Positions 213 to 43,588 of a DNA stretch of 46,564 nucleotides are shown piece after piece; the first letter of the stretch is position 1; each line of letters opens with the position of its first letter. Source of the DNA: Chitinivibrionia bacterium (lineage in GTDB: Bacteria; Fibrobacterota; Chitinivibrionia; Chitinivibrionales; Chitinivibrionaceae). Both the position numbers and the translations under genes were made by a program. Below the pieces are notes generated by a model. The model saw only the letters and a program-made list of their open reading frames with translations, made no database searches and had not been told where the DNA came from. The stretch is from NCBI GenBank assembly GCA_009779925.1, contig WRAZ01000013.1, positions 1-46,564 of the forward strand. Direction: 5' to 3'.

Positions 213-593
213 ATGGCAATAGAGCAACATCAAATCAGAACAGCGGAAAGTCAAAATATGTACGCAATAGAGCGCAATATCATAATAAATGACAGTTTAC
301 TGCCGTCCGCCGATGAATTGTCAAAATTGGCGCAAATAGACGTGTCTATTGTTAAATGGCTGATGGATAAAGCGGATATTGAGCAGGAAATCAGAAAAAA
401 GGTAACTTTGGAAGGAATAACGCTTGCTAAAAATTCTATGTGGATTGCTTTTTCAATAATACTGCTTGCTATGGCTATATCTGTTATTTTCGCCCTTGTA
501 GGAAACGAGTATTTAGGAATAGCGTTTAGTGTTATTTCTGTAATCGTATTCGTTCAAGCATTTCTGAGATTCGGTCGCAATCAAAAGCAGTAG
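213..593 (+). CDS. Hypothetical two-helix membrane protein
   Basis: 126 residues of unknown function. The first 70 residues are polar and helical. Residues from about 76 to 118 form two hydrophobic segments separated by a short GNEY loop, followed by a basic tail. This is the architecture of a small inner-membrane protein with a cytoplasmic N-terminal domain. It starts 3 bases after the preceding gene, suggesting a two-gene operon. No family motif is visible. Confidence 0.6.
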   Translation: MAIEQHQIRTAESQNMYAIERNIIINDSLLPSADELSKLAQIDVSIVKWLMDKADIEQEIRKKVTLEGITLAKNSMWIAFSIILLAMAISVIFALVGNEYLGIAFSVISVIVFVQAFLRFGRNQKQ

Positions 594-631
594 GCGGATA
601 TTTGGGCTGGCAGCCCCCGCCCCTATAAAAC

Positions 632-10640: not shown

Positions 10641-10665
10641 GGGCGGCGTATGGTATTACGCTCCC
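10641..10665. repeat. Imperfect GC-rich hairpin between convergent genes
   Basis: GGGGCGGCGTA and TACGCTCCC form an imperfect stem around TGGTAT. The position between convergent genes and the GGGGC/CTCCC ends suggest a decayed member of the palindrome family seen elsewhere in the window. Confidence 0.4.
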
Positions 10666-23671: not shown

Positions 23672-23698
23672 TAAGGGCAAAAGATTTTTTGCCCCTAC
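23672..23698 (-). terminator. GTAGGGGC-type palindrome acting as dapB terminator
   Basis: On the minus strand GTAGGGGCAAAA ... TTTTGCCC is followed by TTATTTTTT, so it looks like an intrinsic terminator 32 bases after dapB. The GTAGGGGC end matches the palindromes at 40533 and 43560. Confidence 0.7.
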
Positions 23699-34229: not shown

Positions 34230-34264
34230 TAGACAACTGTACAGTCGCCCCCTTTTTATTTTCA
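34230..34264. repeat. Decayed palindrome / duplicated terminator remnant upstream of protease 1
   Basis: GACAACTGTACAGTCGCCCC followed by CTTTTTATTTTCA. The AGTCGCCCC-TTTTTATTTTCA part repeats, with one base difference, the terminator after protease 1 (37538-37556). This marks the left edge of the tandem duplication or the trace of a lost third copy. Confidence 0.6.
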
Positions 34265-34342: not shown

Positions 34343-37300
34343 ATGAATTTAATAAGTAAATTTAAAGCGTTCGTATTGTTTTTTGTCTTATTAGTGTGTT
34401 TCGTCCCTGCGGCTACGGCGCAGGATTTTTCCGGAAAAATTTCACCCGACTTGCTTGAAGCAATGAACAAAGCGGGCGAAAGTGATTTATTTGACGTCTA
34501 TCTTTGGCTAACAACCATCGACCGCAAGGCGGTGGACGAGGAAGTGGAAAAACTCACGGGTTTTACCGAGAATTCGTTTGAAGTTGACAACGAGGAATTT
34601 GATTTGTTGGCGGATTTGATAATGGGCGACAACGACGACGAGGACGAAAATAAAGCCGAACGTCGGCGAGAAGCGAGGGAACGCTTTCAACAAAACGCAA
34701 GAGAACGCGAGCGCAGAAGTCAAAATGTCGATCGTTTTATTACGGAACGCCGCAGAATTGCCAGCCGCGAATATAACAATATGCACCGCAGTTTCGGACG
34801 AAATCATTTGAGCAACATAGAAGTTGTATTTCAGAGCCAACTTACGCCAATGGCTGTTATTAAAGCGACAAGAGCCGATATTATGCGACTTGCGCGCGTG
34901 GACAATGTTCAGAGTTTGGGTTTGTACGTAGAGGAGGAATACGTAAATAATAGCGAAGAGCATTGGTTGGTTACTGATTTAGCCATAAGTTTACCGAACG
35001 CAGGCGCAGATTATACAAGAAATGTGATGGGGCTTAGAGGCGAAGATATTCGTATAGGACAATTTGAAAATGGTATTGCGCCGAGAGAGGGTTTGTTGGC
35101 GCACGTTCCTATGACTCATATAGGATCCGGACTGCCCGGCGCCAACGATCACGCTTATACTGTTGCGATTGTAATGCTCAGCAAAGCGGGAGTTGTTCCC
35201 AACGCGAGTTTAGTCCGCGGTGTAAATCAGGTGCCGACTACCGTTAGAAACGAGGGTTGGGAAGCGGCAGTGTTGCCTCCGCACAGCGTTCACTTAATAA
35301 ACCAGAGTTCCGCATTGCTGGGGCAACCTCACGCTCATTATACGGCAAATGCCCGTTGGTTGGACTATATGGTTGCCAATCACCACGTTATGTTTGTGAT
35401 GTCCACAGGAAATGAGAATTCTCCTACAGCCAGAAGAATGGTAGGTAATCCGGCGACGGCGTACAATATACTTGCCGTCGGTTCGCACTGGCACAATAAT
35501 ACGGTATCCCACCACGACGATAGATTTTCCGAGTTTACAAATCACGGTACATCTTTTGGGCTTATTAAACCGGATGTTCTCGCTCCCGGCGGCGGCGGAA
35601 CAAGTTATGCCTCGCCATACGTCGCGGGCGTTGTTGCGCAAATGTTGCAACATATTCCCGAACTTAGAACGCAAGCTCATGCGGTTAAAGCAAGAATACT
35701 TGCCTCAACCGACAGAAAAGTTTTGAGGGGAGATGGACAGCCCGATGTCGGCGAAGTTATGGGGCAGATGACTCCGCGCCAAGGCGCAGGCGTGATAAAT
35801 GCGGTAAACGCCGTTAATTTCGGGCACTACGCAGGAACTTTGGCGGCGAACGCAAACCACTACGAAATAAGAATTCCCGTGCAGGCAGGCGATACGACGC
35901 AAATCGCGCTTTCGTGGTTTATGAACATAAGCGCTACAGGTTCAACTCCCCAAGACCCAAGCAGTTTGCTGACCAACTTGGATTTGGAAGTTTATAACAG
36001 TAGCGGCACAATGGTAGGCTCTTCCCGTCATCGCATAAACAACAACCAAATAGTAAGATTTCGCTCGACAGCAGGCGGAGAATACAGGGTGCGCGTTGTT
36101 CGTCATTCTCAAAATAATACCGTTGAGCGCTTTGCACTTGCTTTCCCAAGGGTTGCAACTACCGACCCTATTCCTGTTGTGTTTGATTTGGACGGCGGCG
36201 CGTTTGTAAGCTTTACTCCGCCAACAACGGTTATTTCGAGCATTACGCTTCCTACTGCGGCGCAAGTTAGCAAAAGCGGTAATATTCTGACGGGCTGGCG
36301 TAATCAGGGCGGTACGACTTTTGCACCCGGTCAAACGGCGACAATTACTTCCGCCACAACATTTACCGCGCAGTGGGCTCCCGTCATAAATGTTAGTTTT
36401 GTTTTGGACGGCGGCGCATACGTAGGCGGCTTTACTCCGCCGTCGGAGATTGCGGCGAACCTTACGCTTCCTACCGCGGCTCAAGTTAGCAAAAGCGGTT
36501 ATTCCTTGACGGGCTGGCGAAACCAAAACAACGAATTTTTTGCACAGGGACAAACCATAACGCTTACCGCTTCCGCGACATTTACCGCGCAGTGGGACAA
36601 GATTGTCGCCATTAGCCGCGTTCGCGTAAATTCTTGGGAAGCCGTAGCGCAGGGCGATATATTTGTGCCGACCTGTTTGTTTGACGGCAATCCCGCAACT
36701 TTCTGGCACGCGAGATGGAGCGGCGGCAGTGGTCATACAACAGGAGAATCGCTTGTCGATATAGATTTTGGCAGTTTGCATACGATAAGCCGAATTGAAA
36801 TTGACAGGCGTTTGATTTCGGGGCAGAACATAAGGTCGGTACGTATGTTTACCCATACCGAGCAAGGCAACGTATTCCCCAACGGCGAAAGAATACCCGC
36901 CAATTTCCCCGCCAACGTTCCGCAAACCGATATTGATTTGGATTTTGCTATGACAGGCTGGACTGAACTCCAAAATCAAGACCGCGAAATCACAGGTCTT
37001 AATACGCCCAATTCCGTAGTGTTAACCCTGAATACTCCCATTACGGCGCGTTATATCCGCCTTGGCATTACGAATGGTACTGCAAGCGCCGCCGATTTTA
37101 CCCAAGTCCGCGAAATCCGCGTATTCGGCGAGAGCGGCGGCTCTACTTTTATCAGAAACAGAGAAATTCTCGACAACCGTTTCGGCATTCTCTTGGAAAA
37201 CGCAATAGTTTCCGCCTTGGCAAGAATTTCGGTGATAACTCCCGAGCCCGCCACTGTGAATATGGTAATTTTGGATAATTTGGGTAATGTTGTATTTTCG

Positions 37301-37513
37301 GCGGACGGCGTAGGAGCCGAGTCAGCGCGCCGTACGTACGGGCAGGTTTATAGCATAAACCTGCCACAACAAAACAATAACCCGATTGTCTGGAATTTAA
37401 CCAACAACAACGGACGGTACGTCGCCAACGGCACGTATTTAATCCTCGTCGAAGCAATCGGTATCAGCGGTCGAAGATTTACATATTCGGCGCGAATTGG
37501 GGTAAACAGGTAG
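34343..37513 (+). CDS. Secreted subtilase-like protein 1, multidomain
   Basis: 1056 residues. Signal peptide (1-26, ATAQD), an inhibitor/propeptide-like region (33-200) with an acidic-then-Arg-rich helical stretch, and an S8 peptidase fold: GQFENG (E242 at the place of catalytic Asp), DHAYTVA (H270), STGNENS (N357, oxyanion) and GTSYASPYVAG (S421). Then a beta-sandwich (about 500-610), two Listeria-Bacteroides repeats (about 613-750), an F5/8 type C (discoidin) carbohydrate-binding domain (760-920) and a C-terminal Por/type IX-like sorting module (955-1056, ILDNLGNVVFS ... GRYVANGTYLI). It is preceded by AAAGGAGG. It is probably exported and surface-attached; protease activity is uncertain given Glu for Asp. 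Confidence 0.88.
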   Translation: MNLISKFKAFVLFFVLLVCFVPAATAQDFSGKISPDLLEAMNKAGESDLFDVYLWLTTIDRKAVDEEVEKLTGFTENSFEVDNEEFDLLADLIMGDNDDEDENKAERRREARERFQQNARERERRSQNVDRFITERRRIASREYNNMHRSFGRNHLSNIEVVFQSQLTPMAVIKATRADIMRLARVDNVQSLGLYVEEEYVNNSEEHWLVTDLAISLPNAGADYTRNVMGLRGEDIRIGQFENGIAPREGLLAHVPMTHIGSGLPGANDHAYTVAIVMLSKAGVVPNASLVRGVNQVPTTVRNEGWEAAVLPPHSVHLINQSSALLGQPHAHYTANARWLDYMVANHHVMFVMSTGNENSPTARRMVGNPATAYNILAVGSHWHNNTVSHHDDRFSEFTNHGTSFGLIKPDVLAPGGGGTSYASPYVAGVVAQMLQHIPELRTQAHAVKARILASTDRKVLRGDGQPDVGEVMGQMTPRQGAGVINAVNAVNFGHYAGTLAANANHYEIRIPVQAGDTTQIALSWFMNISATGSTPQDPSSLLTNLDLEVYNSSGTMVGSSRHRINNNQIVRFRSTAGGEYRVRVVRHSQNNTVERFALAFPRVATTDPIPVVFDLDGGAFVSFTPPTTVISSITLPTAAQVSKSGNILTGWRNQGGTTFAPGQTATITSATTFTAQWAPVINVSFVLDGGAYVGGFTPPSEIAANLTLPTAAQVSKSGYSLTGWRNQNNEFFAQGQTITLTASATFTAQWDKIVAISRVRVNSWEAVAQGDIFVPTCLFDGNPATFWHARWSGGSGHTTGESLVDIDFGSLHTISRIEIDRRLISGQNIRSVRMFTHTEQGNVFPNGERIPANFPANVPQTDIDLDFAMTGWTELQNQDREITGLNTPNSVVLTLNTPITARYIRLGITNGTASAADFTQVREIRVFGESGGSTFIRNREILDNRFGILLENAIVSALARISVITPEPATVNMVILDNLGNVVFSADGVGAESARRTYGQVYSINLPQQNNNPIVWNLTNNNGRYVANGTYLILVEAIGISGRRFTYSARIGVNR
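37341..37365. repeat. Palindrome inside protease 1 linker
   Basis: GGCAGGTTTAT (37341-37351) and ATAAACCTGCC (37355-37365), 11-bp perfect arms with a 3-base loop, in frame, just before the IVWNL strand of the sorting module. It sits at the position where protease 2 has another palindrome. Confidence 0.85.
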
Positions 37514-37520
37514 TTTTTAC

Positions 37521-37550
37521 AGGGGCGACTTTAATTAGTCGCCCCTTTTT
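37521..37550 (+). terminator. Terminator of protease 1 (palindrome-type)
   Basis: AGGGGCGACT (37521-37530) and AGTCGCCCCT (37537-37546), perfect 10-bp arms, loop TTAATT, then T-run. The AGGGGC/GCCCCT ends match the dispersed palindromes. Confidence 0.85.
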
Positions 37551-37589
37551 ATTTTCACGGATATTTATGACTATAAAGGAGGTTTCTTT

Positions 37590-40500
37590 ATGAATTTAAT
37601 AAGTAAATTTAAACCGCTCGTATTGTTTTTTGTCTTATTGGTGTGTTTCGTCCCTGTGGCTACGGCGCAGGATTTTCTCAATAAAATTTCACTCGAATTG
37701 CGCGAAGCAATGAACGAAGCGGGGGAAGACGATTTACTTAAAGTGCATCTTTGGCTGGCAACCATTGACCACAGGGCGGTAGATGAGGAAGTCGAAAAAC
37801 TTACGGGCTTCACCGAATCGTCGTTTAAAGTTAACAGCGAGGAATTTGATTTGCTTGCGGATTTGATAATGGGTGAAAACGAAGAAGAAAATCAGGAGAG
37901 AATCAGAGAGCGCTCTCAACGAAACGCAAGAGAACGCGAGCGCAGAAGCCAAAACGTCAATCGTTTCATTACGGAACGGCGAAAAATTGCTCAACGCGAA
38001 TATAACAATATGCACCGCGGTTTTGCGCGAAATCATTTGCGCAACGTAGAAATTGTATTTCAGAGCCAACTTACGCCGATGGTGATTATTAAAGCGAGCA
38101 AAGCCGATATTCTGCGGATTGCGCGTTTGAACAGTGTTCAAAGTTTGGATTTGTACGTAGAGGAGGAATACGTAAATAGCAATGAGAGTTGGTTGGTTCC
38201 GGATTTAGCCGTCAGTTTACCGAACATTGAAGCAGATTATACAAGAAATGTTATGGGGCTTACAGGCAGCGGTATTATTATAGGACAATTTGAAATGGAA
38301 GTTGCGCCGAGGGACGGTTTGTTGTCGCACGTTCCTATTACTCATATACCCAATCAATGGCAAGGCACAGGCGCTCACGCTCGGGATGTTGCGATTGTAA
38401 TGGTCAGCAGAAGCGGGGTTGTTCCCGACGCGAGTATAGTCGGTTCCATTGCTCAAACGCCTGCCGGTTGGGAAAGGGCGGTATTGCCTCCGTACAACGT
38501 TCATTTAATAAACCAAAGCGCCGCAATGAGAGGCGCCGCCACTGTTCATTATACAACAAACGCCCGTTGGTTGGATTATATGGTTAGTCATTATCACGTT
38601 ATGTTTGTGATGTCCACAGGAAATGAGAATTCCCCAACAGACAGAAGAATGGTAGGTAATCCGGGAACGGCGTACAATATACTTGCCGTCGGTTCGCACT
38701 GGCACAATAATACAGTATCCCACCACGACGATAGATTTTCCGATTTTACCAACCACGGCACATCGTTTGGGCTCATAAAACCTGATGTTCTCGCTCCCGG
38801 CGGCGGCGGTACAAGTTTTGCCGCGCCTCACGTCGCAGGTATTGTTGCGCAAATGTTGCAACATACGCCCGAACTTAAAACGCAAGCTCATTTGGTTAAA
38901 GCAAGAATACTTGCCTCAACCGACAGAAAAGTTCTGAGGTCGGACGGAACGCCCGACGTCGGCGAAGTAATGGGGCAGATGACTCTGCGCCAAGGCGCAG
39001 GCGTGGTAAATGCGAAAAACGCCGTTAATTTCGGCGGCTATGCGGGCGTTTTGGAGGCAAATGACAGACAACAAGAAATAAGAATTTCCGTGCAGGCAAA
39101 CGTTTATACGCAAATCGCGCTTTCTTGGTTTATGAACCAAGGGGCGACAGGTACAACTGTCGCCGACCCAACCCACTTACTGACCAACTTGGATTTGGAA
39201 GTTTACAACAGCGGCGGCACTTTGGTCGGTTCTTCCCGTTCACGAGTAAACAACAACCAATTAGTCCGATTTCGCTCGACAACAGGCGGAACGTACACGG
39301 TGCGCGTTGTCCGTCATTCGGATAATAATGCCGTCGAGCGTTTTGCACTCGCATTTCCGGGGAGCATAGTTCCCAACGATCCCAGTCCTGTCAGTTTTGT
39401 TTTGGACGGCGGCGCGTTTGTAAACTATACCCCGCCGTCAAGCGCTTCGAACATTACGCTTCCTACGGCGGCTCAAGCGAGCAAAAGCGGTTATGTCCTG
39501 ACGGGCTGGCGCAATCAAGGCGGCACGGATTTTGCGCCCGGACAAACGGTAGTGCTTAGTTCCGCTACGATATTTACGGCGCAGTGGGCTGTTCCCATAG
39601 ACCTTAATTTTGCATTGGACGGCGGCACTTTTGCAAGCGACTTTACTCCTCCGCCGTCGCAAGTTCCTGCGGGTAGCAGTATCACGCTTCCTACGGCGGA
39701 GCAAGTCAGCAAAAGCGGTTATGTCCTAACGGGCTGGCGCAATCAAGGCGGTCAGAATTTTGCACTCGGACAAACCATAACGCTTACTGCTTCCGCGACA
39801 TTTACCGCGCAGTGGGACAAGATTATCGCCATTAGCCGCGTTCGCGTAAATTCTTGGGAAGCCGCCGCCGCGGGCGATAGATTTGTGCCGACCTGTTTGT
39901 TCGACGGCAATCCCGCAACATTCTGGCACGCGAGATGGAGCGGCGGTAGCGGTCATACAACAGGAGAGTCGTTTGTCGATATAGATTTGGACGGCGTACA
40001 AACAGTAAACCGAGTTGAAATTGACAGGCGTTTGGCTTCGGGGCAGAACATAAGGGCTGTGCGTATGTTTACCCATACCGAGCAAGGCAATGTATTTCCC
40101 AACGGCGAAAGAATCCCCGCCAATTTTCCCGCCAACGTTCCGCAATCTGATATTGACGCGGATTTTGCTATGACAGGCTGGACTGAACTCCAAAACCAAG
40201 ACCGCGAAATCACAGGTCTTAATACAAGCAATTCCGTGGTATTGACCTTGAATAATCTCATTACGGCGCGTTATATCCGCCTTGGCATCACGAATGGTCC
40301 TGCAAGCGGCGACCCTCATTATACCCAAGTCCGCGAAATCCGCGTATTCGGCGAGAGCGGCGGAGCTACTTCTATCAGAAACAGAGAAATTCCCGACAAC
40401 CGCTTCGGCATTCTTTTGGAAAACGCAATAGTTTCGGATGTGGCAAGAATTTCGGTGATAACCCCCGAGTCCGCCACGGTGAATATGGTAATATTGGATA

Positions 40501-40703
40501 ATTTGGGTAATGTAGTATTTTCGGCGGACGGTGTAAGGGCGGGTTTGAAACCCGCCCCTACGGCAGATGGTGCAATTATTTGGAATTTGCAAAATTTCAA
40601 CGGACGATACGTCGCCAACGGCACGTATTTGATTTTAGTCGAAGCAATCGGTATCAGCGGTCGAAGGTTTACATATTCGGCGCGAATTGGGGTAAACAGG
40701 TAG
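37590..40703 (+). CDS. Secreted subtilase-like protein 2 (tandem paralogue)
   Basis: 1037 residues with the same layout as protein 1 and near-identical leader, ribosome site and C-terminus. Signal peptide 1-26; peptidase-like core with GQFEME (E235), HARDVA (H263), STGNENS (N345) and GTSFAAPHVAG (S409); two Listeria-Bacteroides repeats; F5/8 type C domain; sorting module. Divergence is concentrated in residues around the E and H motifs and in the linker before the last module, where a 29-base palindrome encodes RAGLKPAPT. It begins 76 bases after gene 1, behind that gene's terminator, with a copied AAAGGAGGTTTC ribosome site. Confidence 0.88.
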   Translation: MNLISKFKPLVLFFVLLVCFVPVATAQDFLNKISLELREAMNEAGEDDLLKVHLWLATIDHRAVDEEVEKLTGFTESSFKVNSEEFDLLADLIMGENEEENQERIRERSQRNARERERRSQNVNRFITERRKIAQREYNNMHRGFARNHLRNVEIVFQSQLTPMVIIKASKADILRIARLNSVQSLDLYVEEEYVNSNESWLVPDLAVSLPNIEADYTRNVMGLTGSGIIIGQFEMEVAPRDGLLSHVPITHIPNQWQGTGAHARDVAIVMVSRSGVVPDASIVGSIAQTPAGWERAVLPPYNVHLINQSAAMRGAATVHYTTNARWLDYMVSHYHVMFVMSTGNENSPTDRRMVGNPGTAYNILAVGSHWHNNTVSHHDDRFSDFTNHGTSFGLIKPDVLAPGGGGTSFAAPHVAGIVAQMLQHTPELKTQAHLVKARILASTDRKVLRSDGTPDVGEVMGQMTLRQGAGVVNAKNAVNFGGYAGVLEANDRQQEIRISVQANVYTQIALSWFMNQGATGTTVADPTHLLTNLDLEVYNSGGTLVGSSRSRVNNNQLVRFRSTTGGTYTVRVVRHSDNNAVERFALAFPGSIVPNDPSPVSFVLDGGAFVNYTPPSSASNITLPTAAQASKSGYVLTGWRNQGGTDFAPGQTVVLSSATIFTAQWAVPIDLNFALDGGTFASDFTPPPSQVPAGSSITLPTAEQVSKSGYVLTGWRNQGGQNFALGQTITLTASATFTAQWDKIIAISRVRVNSWEAAAAGDRFVPTCLFDGNPATFWHARWSGGSGHTTGESFVDIDLDGVQTVNRVEIDRRLASGQNIRAVRMFTHTEQGNVFPNGERIPANFPANVPQSDIDADFAMTGWTELQNQDREITGLNTSNSVVLTLNNLITARYIRLGITNGPASGDPHYTQVREIRVFGESGGATSIRNREIPDNRFGILLENAIVSDVARISVITPESATVNMVILDNLGNVVFSADGVRAGLKPAPTADGAIIWNLQNFNGRYVANGTYLILVEAIGISGRRFTYSARIGVNR
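39143..39164. repeat. Palindrome inside protease 2 coding region
   Basis: GGCGACAG (39143-39150) and CTGTCGCC (39157-39164), perfect 8-bp arms, in frame. Protease 1 has the same number of codons here but no palindrome. Confidence 0.7.
40533..40561. repeat. GTAGGGGCGGG-type palindrome inside protease 2
   Basis: GGGCGGGTTT (40537-40546) and AAACCCGCCC (40548-40557) within a 29-base unit that differs at only two positions from the intergenic copy at 43560-43588. It is in frame and translated. Confidence 0.9.
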
Positions 40704-40731
40704 AAAAATTTGTTTTATATGTTTTTTTTGT

Positions 40732-40763
40732 AGAGACAAGGCACGCCTTGTCTCTTTTTTTTG
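40732..40763 (+). terminator. Terminator of protease 2
   Basis: AGAGACAAGGC (40732-40742) and GCCTTGTCTCT (40745-40755), perfect 11-bp arms with a 2-base centre, then eight further T residues. The GTAGAGAC edge resembles the insert at 701-752. Confidence 0.88.
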
Positions 40764-40774
40764 TTTTTGATTTT

Positions 40775-41185
40775 TTAGATTTGAATATCAAGTATTTCCG
40801 CAAATCTTCTTGGTGAAATAATTCCCTCTTCTTGCGGAAAATCGTCAAGATTTCCTGTTATTAAATAATCGGCATTCGCAGTTTTGAATGTCTCGTAAAA
40901 TTTTTTATCGGACTCGTCGCTAAAATGCACATATTGAGGAAAAGGCGATACTTTTTCGCCGTTTTTTAAGATTGCTGAGAGCAGGGTATTTACTGTAATT
41001 GGGGGTATCTTTAGTTTCTTGCGGTTTAAAACATCAATGTATTCTAAAAGCATATCGTCGCTGTAAACAACAACAATATCGCCTCTTTTGAAAACAGTAT
41101 CAACAATAATTGACGGAATACTCGGAGATTTAAGAAGTGAAGAAACAAAAACATTCGTATCTATAACAAGTTTGTAATTAAGCAT
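40775..41185 (-). CDS. PIN-domain toxin of a type II toxin-antitoxin pair
   Basis: 136 residues of the PIN nuclease fold: VIDTNVFVSSLL with D9, LLEYIDVL with the second acidic residue, DESDKKFYE and NADYLITGNLDDF with further acidic residues that would coordinate Mg2+/Mn2+. Such proteins cut RNA and are held inactive by a cognate antitoxin. The gene overlaps the upstream small gene by 8 bases, the usual antitoxin-toxin order. It belongs to the 'putative toxin, PIN family' group rather than VapC proper. Confidence 0.9.
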   Translation of the reverse strand: MLNYKLVIDTNVFVSSLLKSPSIPSIIVDTVFKRGDIVVVYSDDMLLEYIDVLNRKKLKIPPITVNTLLSAILKNGEKVSPFPQYVHFSDESDKKFYETFKTANADYLITGNLDDFPQEEGIISPRRFAEILDIQI

Positions 41186-41372
41186 ATATTAACTTTTCCA
41201 TTTCCCTTCTCTCTTTACGCGCGGCGGCAATCTCTGCATTTATTTCTTCATCAGTCATTTTGCTTGTGCCGTTTAATTTAGCTAATTCTCTTGCGTAATT
41301 CAATGCTTTGATTACTTTTTCACCCTCTATCTCCCTTTGAGTTTTGTAAGGGTTTGTTTTTAATTTATACAT
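41178..41372 (-). CDS. Antitoxin of PIN toxin
   Basis: 64 residues, highly charged and helical (REIEGEKVIKALNYARELAKLNGTSKMTDEEINAEIAAARKERREMEKL). Small size, position immediately upstream and overlap with the PIN toxin identify it as the antitoxin, though no standard DNA-binding fold is evident by eye. AAGGAG lies before the ATG. Confidence 0.75.
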   Translation of the reverse strand: MYKLKTNPYKTQREIEGEKVIKALNYARELAKLNGTSKMTDEEINAEIAAARKERREMEKLIYA

Positions 41373-41572
41373 ATAAAAACTCCTTGTTTGGATTTCTCTT
41401 TTTTATAAAATACCATTTCGCCAAAGTAAATGCAGAGATTATTTGAAAATATTGAAAAACCGCGGCGAATTGTGCAATGTCCTAAATTCTTGATTATTTA
41501 CAGAGCTGTGATACCTTGCTTCTCTTTTTGTTTTTGACAAAACGTATTTTTACCCCAAAAAAGGAGACAAAA

Positions 41573-43549
41573 ATGCCATTCAGCCTCGTAAGCAATTACC
41601 AACCCGCGGGCGACCAGCCGAAAGCGATTGCGGAACTCAGCGACGGGATAAAAAACGGCGAAAAGCACCAAACGCTTTTGGGCGTCACAGGGTCGGGAAA
41701 AACGTTTACGATGGCGAACGTCATAAAAAACGCGAATATGCCCGTCCTAATAATCTCGCACAACAAGACCTTGGCGGCGCAGCTTTTTGAGGAATTTAAG
41801 ACGTTTTTTCCCGAAAACGCCGTCGAATATTTTGTCAGTTTTTACGACTATTATCAGCCCGAAGCGTATATCCCGTCGAGCGACACATACATCGAAAAAA
41901 CCGCCGATATCAACGAAGAAATCGACCGCCTTCGCCTTAAAGCAACCTCGTCTTTGCTCTCTCGAAGAGACGCAATTATTGTGTCGTCGGTCAGTTGCAT
42001 TTACAATATCGGTTCGCCCGAAAATTATCGTGCAAACACCATTGATTTGACGGTCGGAATGAATTTGCCGCAAAGCGAAATCCTCACAAAACTCGTGAAT
42101 ATGCAATATATCCGCAACAATTTGATTTTTGAGCGCGGGACTTTCAGGGTGCGCGGCGACACCGTCGATATTTACCCTGCCTACGAAGAACAGGGGCTTC
42201 GACTTTCGTTTTTCGGCGACGAATTGGAGCAAATTTCCATAATCGACCCGCTCACGGGAAACACAAAATACACGCTCGAAGAAACACTGCTGTTCCCCGC
42301 AAAGCACTACACGCAATCGTCGGTTTCTATTCCGCAGGCGGTCGAAGAAATAAAAGCGGAGATGGAAGAGCAGATAAAAAAATTTGAGGCGGAGGGCAAA
42401 CTAATCGAGGCGCAACGCATAAAAGAGCGCACCACCCGCGATATGGAAATGCTGATGGAAGTCGGCTACATAAACGGGATTGAGAACTATTCGCGGATTT
42501 TGGACGGGCGAAAAATAGGAGAGCGCCCATACTCGCTTTTGGACTTTTTTAAGCCGCCGTTTTTGGTGATAATCGACGAATCGCACATAACAATCCCGCA
42601 AATCGGCGGAATGTACAACGGCGACCGAGCGCGAAAAACCACCTTGGTAAACCACGGATTTCGCATTCCCGCGGCTCTCGACAACCGCCCGCTGAGGTTC
42701 GAGGAATTCGAGCAAATGCTTGATTTTACGATTTTTCTTTCCGCAACTCCCGCCGACTACGAACTGCAAAAAACGGGCGGCGTAATTGTGGAGCAGGTCA
42801 TTCGCCCGACGGGACTTGTTGACCCCGAAATCGAAATTCGCCCCGCCAAAACGCAGGTGGACGACTTGATTTTTCAATTACGTAAAAACGTCGCAAAAGG
42901 CGAGCGCGCTTTGGTGACCACGCTGACAAAAAAGCAATCCGAAGACCTTACGCATCACTTGGACAATCTGGGGTTTCGCGTAAAATATCTGCACTCCGCA
43001 ATCGACACGCTCGAACGCCCGATTATCCTAAACGATTTGCGCAAAGGCGAGTTTGATATTTTAATAGGAATAAATTTATTGCGGGAGGGCTTGGACTTGC
43101 CCGAGGTCTCTCTTGTGGCTATTTTGGACGCCGACCGAGAGGGCTTTTTGCGCTCGACAAAATCGCTTATACAGATTGCGGGACGAGCCGCGCGAAACGT
43201 AAACGGACAGATAATTTTTTACGCCGACACGATAACCGATTCCATAAAAAAGACCCTCGAAGAAACCCGCCGCCGCCGCGAAATCCAGCTGGAATACAAC
43301 AAAGAACACAATATAACGCCGCGCTCAACCACCCGCGAAATCAGCGAAACTTTCTACGGCTACAGCAACAGAGACGGCGAAGACAATCTTCTGATGGCAG
43401 CCGAAGAGCGCGCAAAATACGGCGAAGAACCCGACATAAAAGAAACAATCGCTCTACTGACCAAACAAATGCAATCAGCGGCGCAGAAACTCGATTTTGA
43501 AACCGCGGCGAAGATTAGGGATAAGATTATTGTTTTGAGTGGGAAGTGA
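41573..43549 (+). CDS. uvrB: UvrABC system protein B
   Basis: 658 residues, normal length. The damage-verification helicase-like subunit of nucleotide excision repair. Walker A GVTGSGKT (37-44), the beta-hairpin region YYDYYQPEAYIPSSDTYIEK, DESH box VIIDESHITIPQIGGMYNGDR, helicase motifs SATPADYE and GRAARN, and a C-terminal UVR domain (QMQSAAQKLDFETAAKIRDKI) that contacts UvrC. The start at 41573 follows AAAAGGAGAC; a longer frame from 41516 has no homology. Confidence 0.97.
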   Translation: MPFSLVSNYQPAGDQPKAIAELSDGIKNGEKHQTLLGVTGSGKTFTMANVIKNANMPVLIISHNKTLAAQLFEEFKTFFPENAVEYFVSFYDYYQPEAYIPSSDTYIEKTADINEEIDRLRLKATSSLLSRRDAIIVSSVSCIYNIGSPENYRANTIDLTVGMNLPQSEILTKLVNMQYIRNNLIFERGTFRVRGDTVDIYPAYEEQGLRLSFFGDELEQISIIDPLTGNTKYTLEETLLFPAKHYTQSSVSIPQAVEEIKAEMEEQIKKFEAEGKLIEAQRIKERTTRDMEMLMEVGYINGIENYSRILDGRKIGERPYSLLDFFKPPFLVIIDESHITIPQIGGMYNGDRARKTTLVNHGFRIPAALDNRPLRFEEFEQMLDFTIFLSATPADYELQKTGGVIVEQVIRPTGLVDPEIEIRPAKTQVDDLIFQLRKNVAKGERALVTTLTKKQSEDLTHHLDNLGFRVKYLHSAIDTLERPIILNDLRKGEFDILIGINLLREGLDLPEVSLVAILDADREGFLRSTKSLIQIAGRAARNVNGQIIFYADTITDSIKKTLEETRRRREIQLEYNKEHNITPRSTTREISETFYGYSNRDGEDNLLMAAEERAKYGEEPDIKETIALLTKQMQSAAQKLDFETAAKIRDKIIVLSGK

Positions 43550-43559
43550 GGATTCTTAT

Positions 43560-43588
43560 GTAGGGGCGGGTTTTAAACCCGCCCCTAC
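43560..43588. repeat. Perfect GTAGGGGC palindrome between uvrB and flavodiiron gene
   Basis: GTAGGGGCGGGTTT (43560-43573) and AAACCCGCCCCTAC (43575-43588), perfect 14-bp arms with one central base. It lies between convergent genes 11 bases after uvrB, so it may end both transcripts although no T-run follows. Confidence 0.92.

Follow-up and report, generated by a model that had tools for sequence, protein, structure and literature searches.

What kind of element can stand, with almost the same letters, both inside a gene and just after another? The question is raised by two 29-base palindromes, one within a protease gene and one behind uvrB, in a stretch of 46,564 nt from a Chitinivibrionia bacterium (assembly GCA_009779925.1, contig WRAZ01000013.1, positions 1-46,564, forward strand; hereafter the window). 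A sequence-only reading of this DNA had proposed a family similar to repetitive extragenic palindromes (REPs) or miniature inverted-repeat transposable elements, with fixed ends and variable inner stems, that tolerates coding sequence and sometimes serves as terminator. Our analysis indicates that the palindromes are very probably double-foot REPs of the GTAG superfamily, non-autonomous elements that come as 29-bp monomers and head-to-head dimers and would be mobilised by a REP-associated tyrosine transposase (RAYT, or TnpAREP) of a clade that probably corresponds to TnpAREP subclass 2.4. The members and remnants located in the window are the following.

40533..40561, + strand: double-foot REP monomer GTAAGGGCGGGTTTGAAACCCGCCCCTAC, encoding VRAGLKPAPT in frame (protease codons 982-991).
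43560..43588, unstranded: intergenic double-foot REP monomer GTAGGGGCGGGTTTTAAACCCGCCCCTAC, some 11 bp past the uvrB stop, with convergent genes on either side.
37336..37365, + strand: palindrome GTACGGGCAGGTTTATAGCATAAACCTGCC, REP-like, in the upstream tandem protease (same loop, but a different frame, giving TYGQVYSINLP); coordinates taken from the alignment.
23672..23698, - strand: REP with a single GTAG foot, GTAG-GGGCAAAA-AATC-TTTTGCCC-TTA, as read in the window sequence.
590..627, + strand: decayed REP, listed as 604-624 in the sequence-only reading, preceding a C-terminal-domain reading frame.

The coordinates first given for the two 29-mers were right, and so were the two differences between them, which fall at base 4 (A/G) and base 15 (G/T). 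The palindrome at 23672-23698, proposed as a relative, is indeed a member, on the minus strand. Within the window AGGGGC-N-GCCCCT was matched twice, against no match in 100 shuffles, and an Rfam scan of the window gave a tRNA as its sole match.

We then consider the genome from which the window comes, a 2.5 Mb draft assembly of 88 contigs that is 97.6% complete. The 29-mer GTAGGGGCGGGTTTNAAACCCGCCCCTAC was found in 57 copies (up to 3 mismatches) and its reversed control in none; longer units of the form GTAGGGGC-N25-55-GCCCCTAC were 37, again with 0 for the control, numbers well away from the chance level. The monomer is laid out as GTAG-GGGCGGG-TTTNAAA-CCCGCCC-CTAC over 29 bp, one strand of the double-foot form reading GTAG-GGGCGGGTTTNAAACCCGCCC-CTAC. 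Typically GTAG stands at one end and an imperfect foot, GTAA or GTAC, at the other, also in the intergenic copies, and in most monomers GTAG is present on at least one strand beside a short stem-loop. In almost all of the longer units two hairpins of variable stem are joined by a linker, which makes them head-to-head dimers of 62-74 bp with the same feet as the monomers. Their stems are of the types GGGCGTATTGCATACGCCC, GGGCGGGGTTTGCCCGCCC, GGGCAGACCCCTGTGTCTGCCC and that of the 29-mer, and the linkers, some 16-27 bases long, often have nothing in common from one copy to the next. Monomers and dimers with common feet and several stems account for the fixed ends and different inner arms that had been noticed in the window. 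Outside the C-terminal domains described below, a pyrimidine before and a purine after the element were seen in 43 of 57 copies.

Comparison with relatives pointed to mobility of these elements. The pattern GTAGGGGC-N8-38-GCCCCTAC appeared in 25 of 60 relatives, with control matches in 3, and was patchily distributed over the phylum; a congener from the same genus (G001) had zero copies. This congener provides empty sites. The MurC-like Mur ligase of our genome carries one 62-bp dimer and two more REPs, and its G001 ortholog (85% identity over aa 1-282) is empty at all three REP sites. At the dimer site the net gain is 60 bp, with the frame kept. Similarly, a conserved aminotransferase carries the 29-mer, and neither the solved homolog nor the family relatives have it at that site. 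Other hosts of in-frame REPs are an HrpA-like helicase, methyltransferases of the TrmH family, the RsmE type and DUF1698, and a glycosyltransferase. Together with the copies in surface proteins, this bears out the proposed tolerance of coding sequence. Since the congener shows the empty sites, insertion and its effect on proteins are directly testable. Far from this phylum, the 29-mer was found, exact apart from the free centre base, in at least about a dozen phyla among the matches listed. These came mostly from metagenome bins, with titles that included Chloroflexi, Omnitrophota, Nitrospirae, Deltaproteobacteria, Gammaproteobacteria (Lamprocystis), Cyanobacteria (Roseofilum), Planctomycetota, Terriglobia, Spirochaetes, Gemmatimonadota, Bacteroidales, Hydrogenedentota, Glassbacteria and others.

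The link with a transposase comes from other genomes. In one of the same phylum (G041), the 29-mer flanks a RAYT open reading frame (ORF) at either end and is also present within it. A profile of its clade found relatives in 37 of the 60 relatives and none in G001. When translated, the RAYT ORFs show the motifs NH[IFV]H, WQ and YIxNNP and match the NCBIfam RAYT model under its cut-off. About 35 of 53 ORFs of the clade contain an in-frame GTAG hairpin, to be compared with 0.07-0.17 per kb outside (the 53 come from two sets, and three loci present in both were counted once). These hairpins lie mostly after the HUH motif, and the gene is often flanked by the same sequence. A RAYT tree built without the REP-coded loop tracked the REP stem type across phyla: it took 3 changes, compared with 8.2 for shuffled data, and none of 1000 shuffles came down to that number. 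Such a pattern would be expected of a RAYT and a REP that move and evolve as a pair. The first RAYT trees possibly still contained part of that loop. With a profile limited to the N-terminal part, which contains no REP-coded sequence, the clade was found in 15 of the 20 named genomes that bear REPs. PF01797 alone was discarded as a RAYT detector, having missed the RAYTs of G053, G063, G064, G066, G067, G069, G070 and G074, which the clade profiles found. We also observed, in another genome, a RAYT ORF in which four REPs of the GGGCGTTGCG type lie in frame (L295, G038:C220).

The following sequence of events can be proposed. The HUH-tyrosine transposase would recognise the GTAG foot and the hairpin in single-stranded DNA, cut the REP and rejoin it at new sites, mostly at pyrimidine/purine junctions. 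Copies that break genes would be removed by selection, and in-frame copies in flexible loops would stay. As copies persist in a genome in which no transposase gene was detected, the RAYT responsible for their spread has probably disappeared since, is encoded in sequence absent from the assembly or acted in trans.

Several observations weigh against mobilisation by such a transposase. The sequence-only reading had suggested looking for a RAYT-type gene in the same genome, and the assembly yielded none, neither with PF01797 nor with the full-length and N-terminal RAYT profiles; no Y1 transposase was found in it. Actually, the full profile gave a single match (E 0.004), at the window's own palindrome, which was spurious, and for this reason the search was rerun with the N-terminal part only. 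When the middle segment was also removed, the association between RAYT tree and stem type was weaker, the tree being poorly resolved in places, and the trimming behind the clear association was picked after the weaker result had been seen. Besides, a gain of 60 bp for an element of 62 bp implies that the junctions are not strictly precise, and the empty sites were demonstrated in few genes.

Two other explanations would do without mobility altogether. If the palindromes were intrinsic transcription terminators, or hairpins derived from them and selected at gene ends, one would expect copies such as that of 43560, about 11 bp past uvrB, and T-runs such as the one after the hairpin at 37521. However, neither 29-mer of the window has a T-run, many copies are in frame within ORFs, in the C-terminal domains and elsewhere, and the sequence is fixed far past the needs of termination and is common to distant phyla. 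We regard this as very improbable for the family. The terminator role that had been suggested for some copies is supported at one place only, where the foot is missing.

37521..37546, + strand: hairpin resembling an intrinsic terminator, AGGGGCGACTTTAATTAGTCGCCCCT then TTTTATTTT, directly after the upstream protease and without GTAG foot.

This hairpin had been listed among the relatives, and for lack of the foot it was left out of the REP count. Of the three decayed forms that had been proposed, the one at 34230-34250 shares a GTCGCCCC-T-run stretch with it and lies ahead of the tandem duplicate gene, so that it is likely a decayed relic of the same terminator. The one at 604-624 is a decayed REP beside a damaged C-terminal-domain frame, and 10641-10665 was assigned to neither class. 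The second explanation, that the palindromes are immobile sites for a DNA-binding protein (nucleoid, partition or uptake) selected as DNA, would account for the near-perfect inverted symmetry and the fixed sequence. It fits badly with a congener without copies and a patchy presence over the phylum, with feet that are constant while the stem types vary, with a sequence tied to RAYT genes and with the empty sites at the orthologous Mur-ligase locus, and we consider it extremely improbable.

A different matter is how so many copies came to lie in one kind of protein. The 40533 copy belongs to the C-terminal domain of a subtilase, and this domain has weak similarity, under the curated cut-offs, to the sorting-domain models of type IX secretion. 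The genes involved in the window, and the uvrB gene that follows, are located as follows.

37590..40703, + strand: surface protein hosting the in-frame REP (subtilase S8, Flg_new repeats, F5/8 C domain, C-terminal domain).
34343..37513, + strand: tandem paralog of this protease.
41516..43549, + strand: uvrB.

The two tandem subtilase surface proteins (34343-40703) are 82% identical in DNA, and their palindromic inserts differ within the same C-terminal loop. The domain is present in more than 30 paralogs, some 30 of which carry REPs in the loop. Specifically, 31 of 32 extracted loops were occupied, nearly all by GTAG-type REPs. Many of these loci were chosen because of the 29-mer, although domains taken by similarity alone nearly all carry an insert too. 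The C-terminal domains hold 16 monomers and 8 dimers in frame, and further copies are in other ORFs. The stretches examined were chosen mainly around copies, and 'ORF' here also takes in short unproven frames, so that tallies of ORF and intergenic copies are not an unbiased census.

Could the loop copies simply descend from one insertion or a few, multiplied along with the domain through gene duplication and gene conversion? We give this a substantial chance, if somewhat short of even. In its favour, the same dimer, its linker nearly unchanged, is shared by seven domains, and a monomer flanked by ADGA by about seven. On the other hand, the loop holds inserts of about 10 kinds, which differ in their junctions and occupy two reading frames. 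The kind of insert shows no agreement with the domain tree, which is poorly resolved (17 changes, compared with 18.4 for shuffled data), and the copies outside the domain demonstrate insertion itself. Duplication of already decorated domains accounts for part of the loop pattern, and what remains requires repeated insertion or conversion; probably repeated insertion and spread with the domain were both at work. A bolder reading, in which several REP kinds repeatedly entered this one loop of a secreted-protein domain with more than 30 paralogs and are kept there as peptide modules or recombination handles that diversify surface proteins, seems to us rather unlikely. We found no description of REPs gathered in this way in a single loop of a family of surface domains in the REP literature, as far as the portions available of two papers (PMC6006769 and PMC3733652, see below) are concerned.

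The reading as mobile double-foot REPs is close to what has been described before. The available portions of (Quentin et al., 2018; PMC6006769) describe, for TnpAREP subclass 2.4, double-foot REPs and in-frame REPs within tnpAREP genes. As here, GT[AG]G stands at one end with its complement at the other, the motifs are NHxH, WQ and YIxNNP, and REPs flank and enter the RAYT genes, matched in our case by the 29-mer in other genomes. Our genome differs in that no tnpAREP gene was found, and the recurrence in one loop is absent from those portions. REPs inside RAYT genes were thus ruled out as a novelty. The same source proposes that a double-foot REP may arise through deletion between the members of an inverted dimer; in our genome, monomers occur alongside dimers of one and the same stem, in agreement with that proposal. 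GTAG-tagged REPs, according to the portions available of (Di Nocera et al., 2013; PMC3733652), also form dimers and intragenic copies and exist in some species without transposase, a cognate RAYT gene in the same genome being usual but not obligatory. The GTAG tag, the short stem-loop, the head-to-head dimers and the intergenic and intragenic copies are all alike, but there the tag is unpaired and at one end, whereas here there is mostly a second, sometimes imperfect, foot. From these two descriptions the kind of element is already known, and the copies of our genome are new members. REP doublets forming hairpins, or REPINs (Bertels and Rainey, 2011; PMC3116915), are likewise two inverted REPs with a linker; here, copies whose REPs are identical often have linkers unrelated to one another, and it is common to find a double-foot unit on its own. 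The Rickettsia palindromic elements (RPEs), as cited in the same portions of PMC3733652, resemble ours as in-frame palindromic inserts in many proteins, housekeeping ones included, but their sequence and foot are unlike those found here. There, RPE-4 and RPE-6 are classed among the CGTC repeats, and RPE-1 is described as longer.

Searching the literature with the letters of the 29-mer gave only chance matches among the matches listed, and with the encoded peptides no relevant paper. What these data contribute is a REP family of near-identical 29 bases reaching over at least about a dozen phyla, whose transposase relatives carry the REP within their own genes, and a genome without detected transposase in which REPs decorate housekeeping and surface proteins. 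For annotation it is relevant that a peptide such as VGAGLKPAPT, which recurs among predicted proteins, is a REP-encoded insert and not a protein motif.

Some minor observations concern the surroundings of these elements. In the decayed REP at 590..627, CCCCTATAA is an in-frame stop where the paralogs have CCCCTACAA. The C-terminal-domain frame from 628 onward is preceded, within 1-700, by a stop and by an upstream ORF in an unrelated frame that terminates at the TAG of a GTAG; the frame is probably a gene remnant. Elsewhere in the genome, one C-terminal-domain loop (L213, G000:C1:108900-112700) contains a different palindrome, TTCGACAGGCTCA...TGAGCCTGTCGAA, outside the GTAG type. Finally, downstream of the second protease, at 40732-40755, there is a terminator-like hairpin AGAGACAAGGCACGCCTTGTCTCT with a T-run, the arms of which are similar to a GTAG-AGACAAGG palindrome in the loop of another locus (L217).
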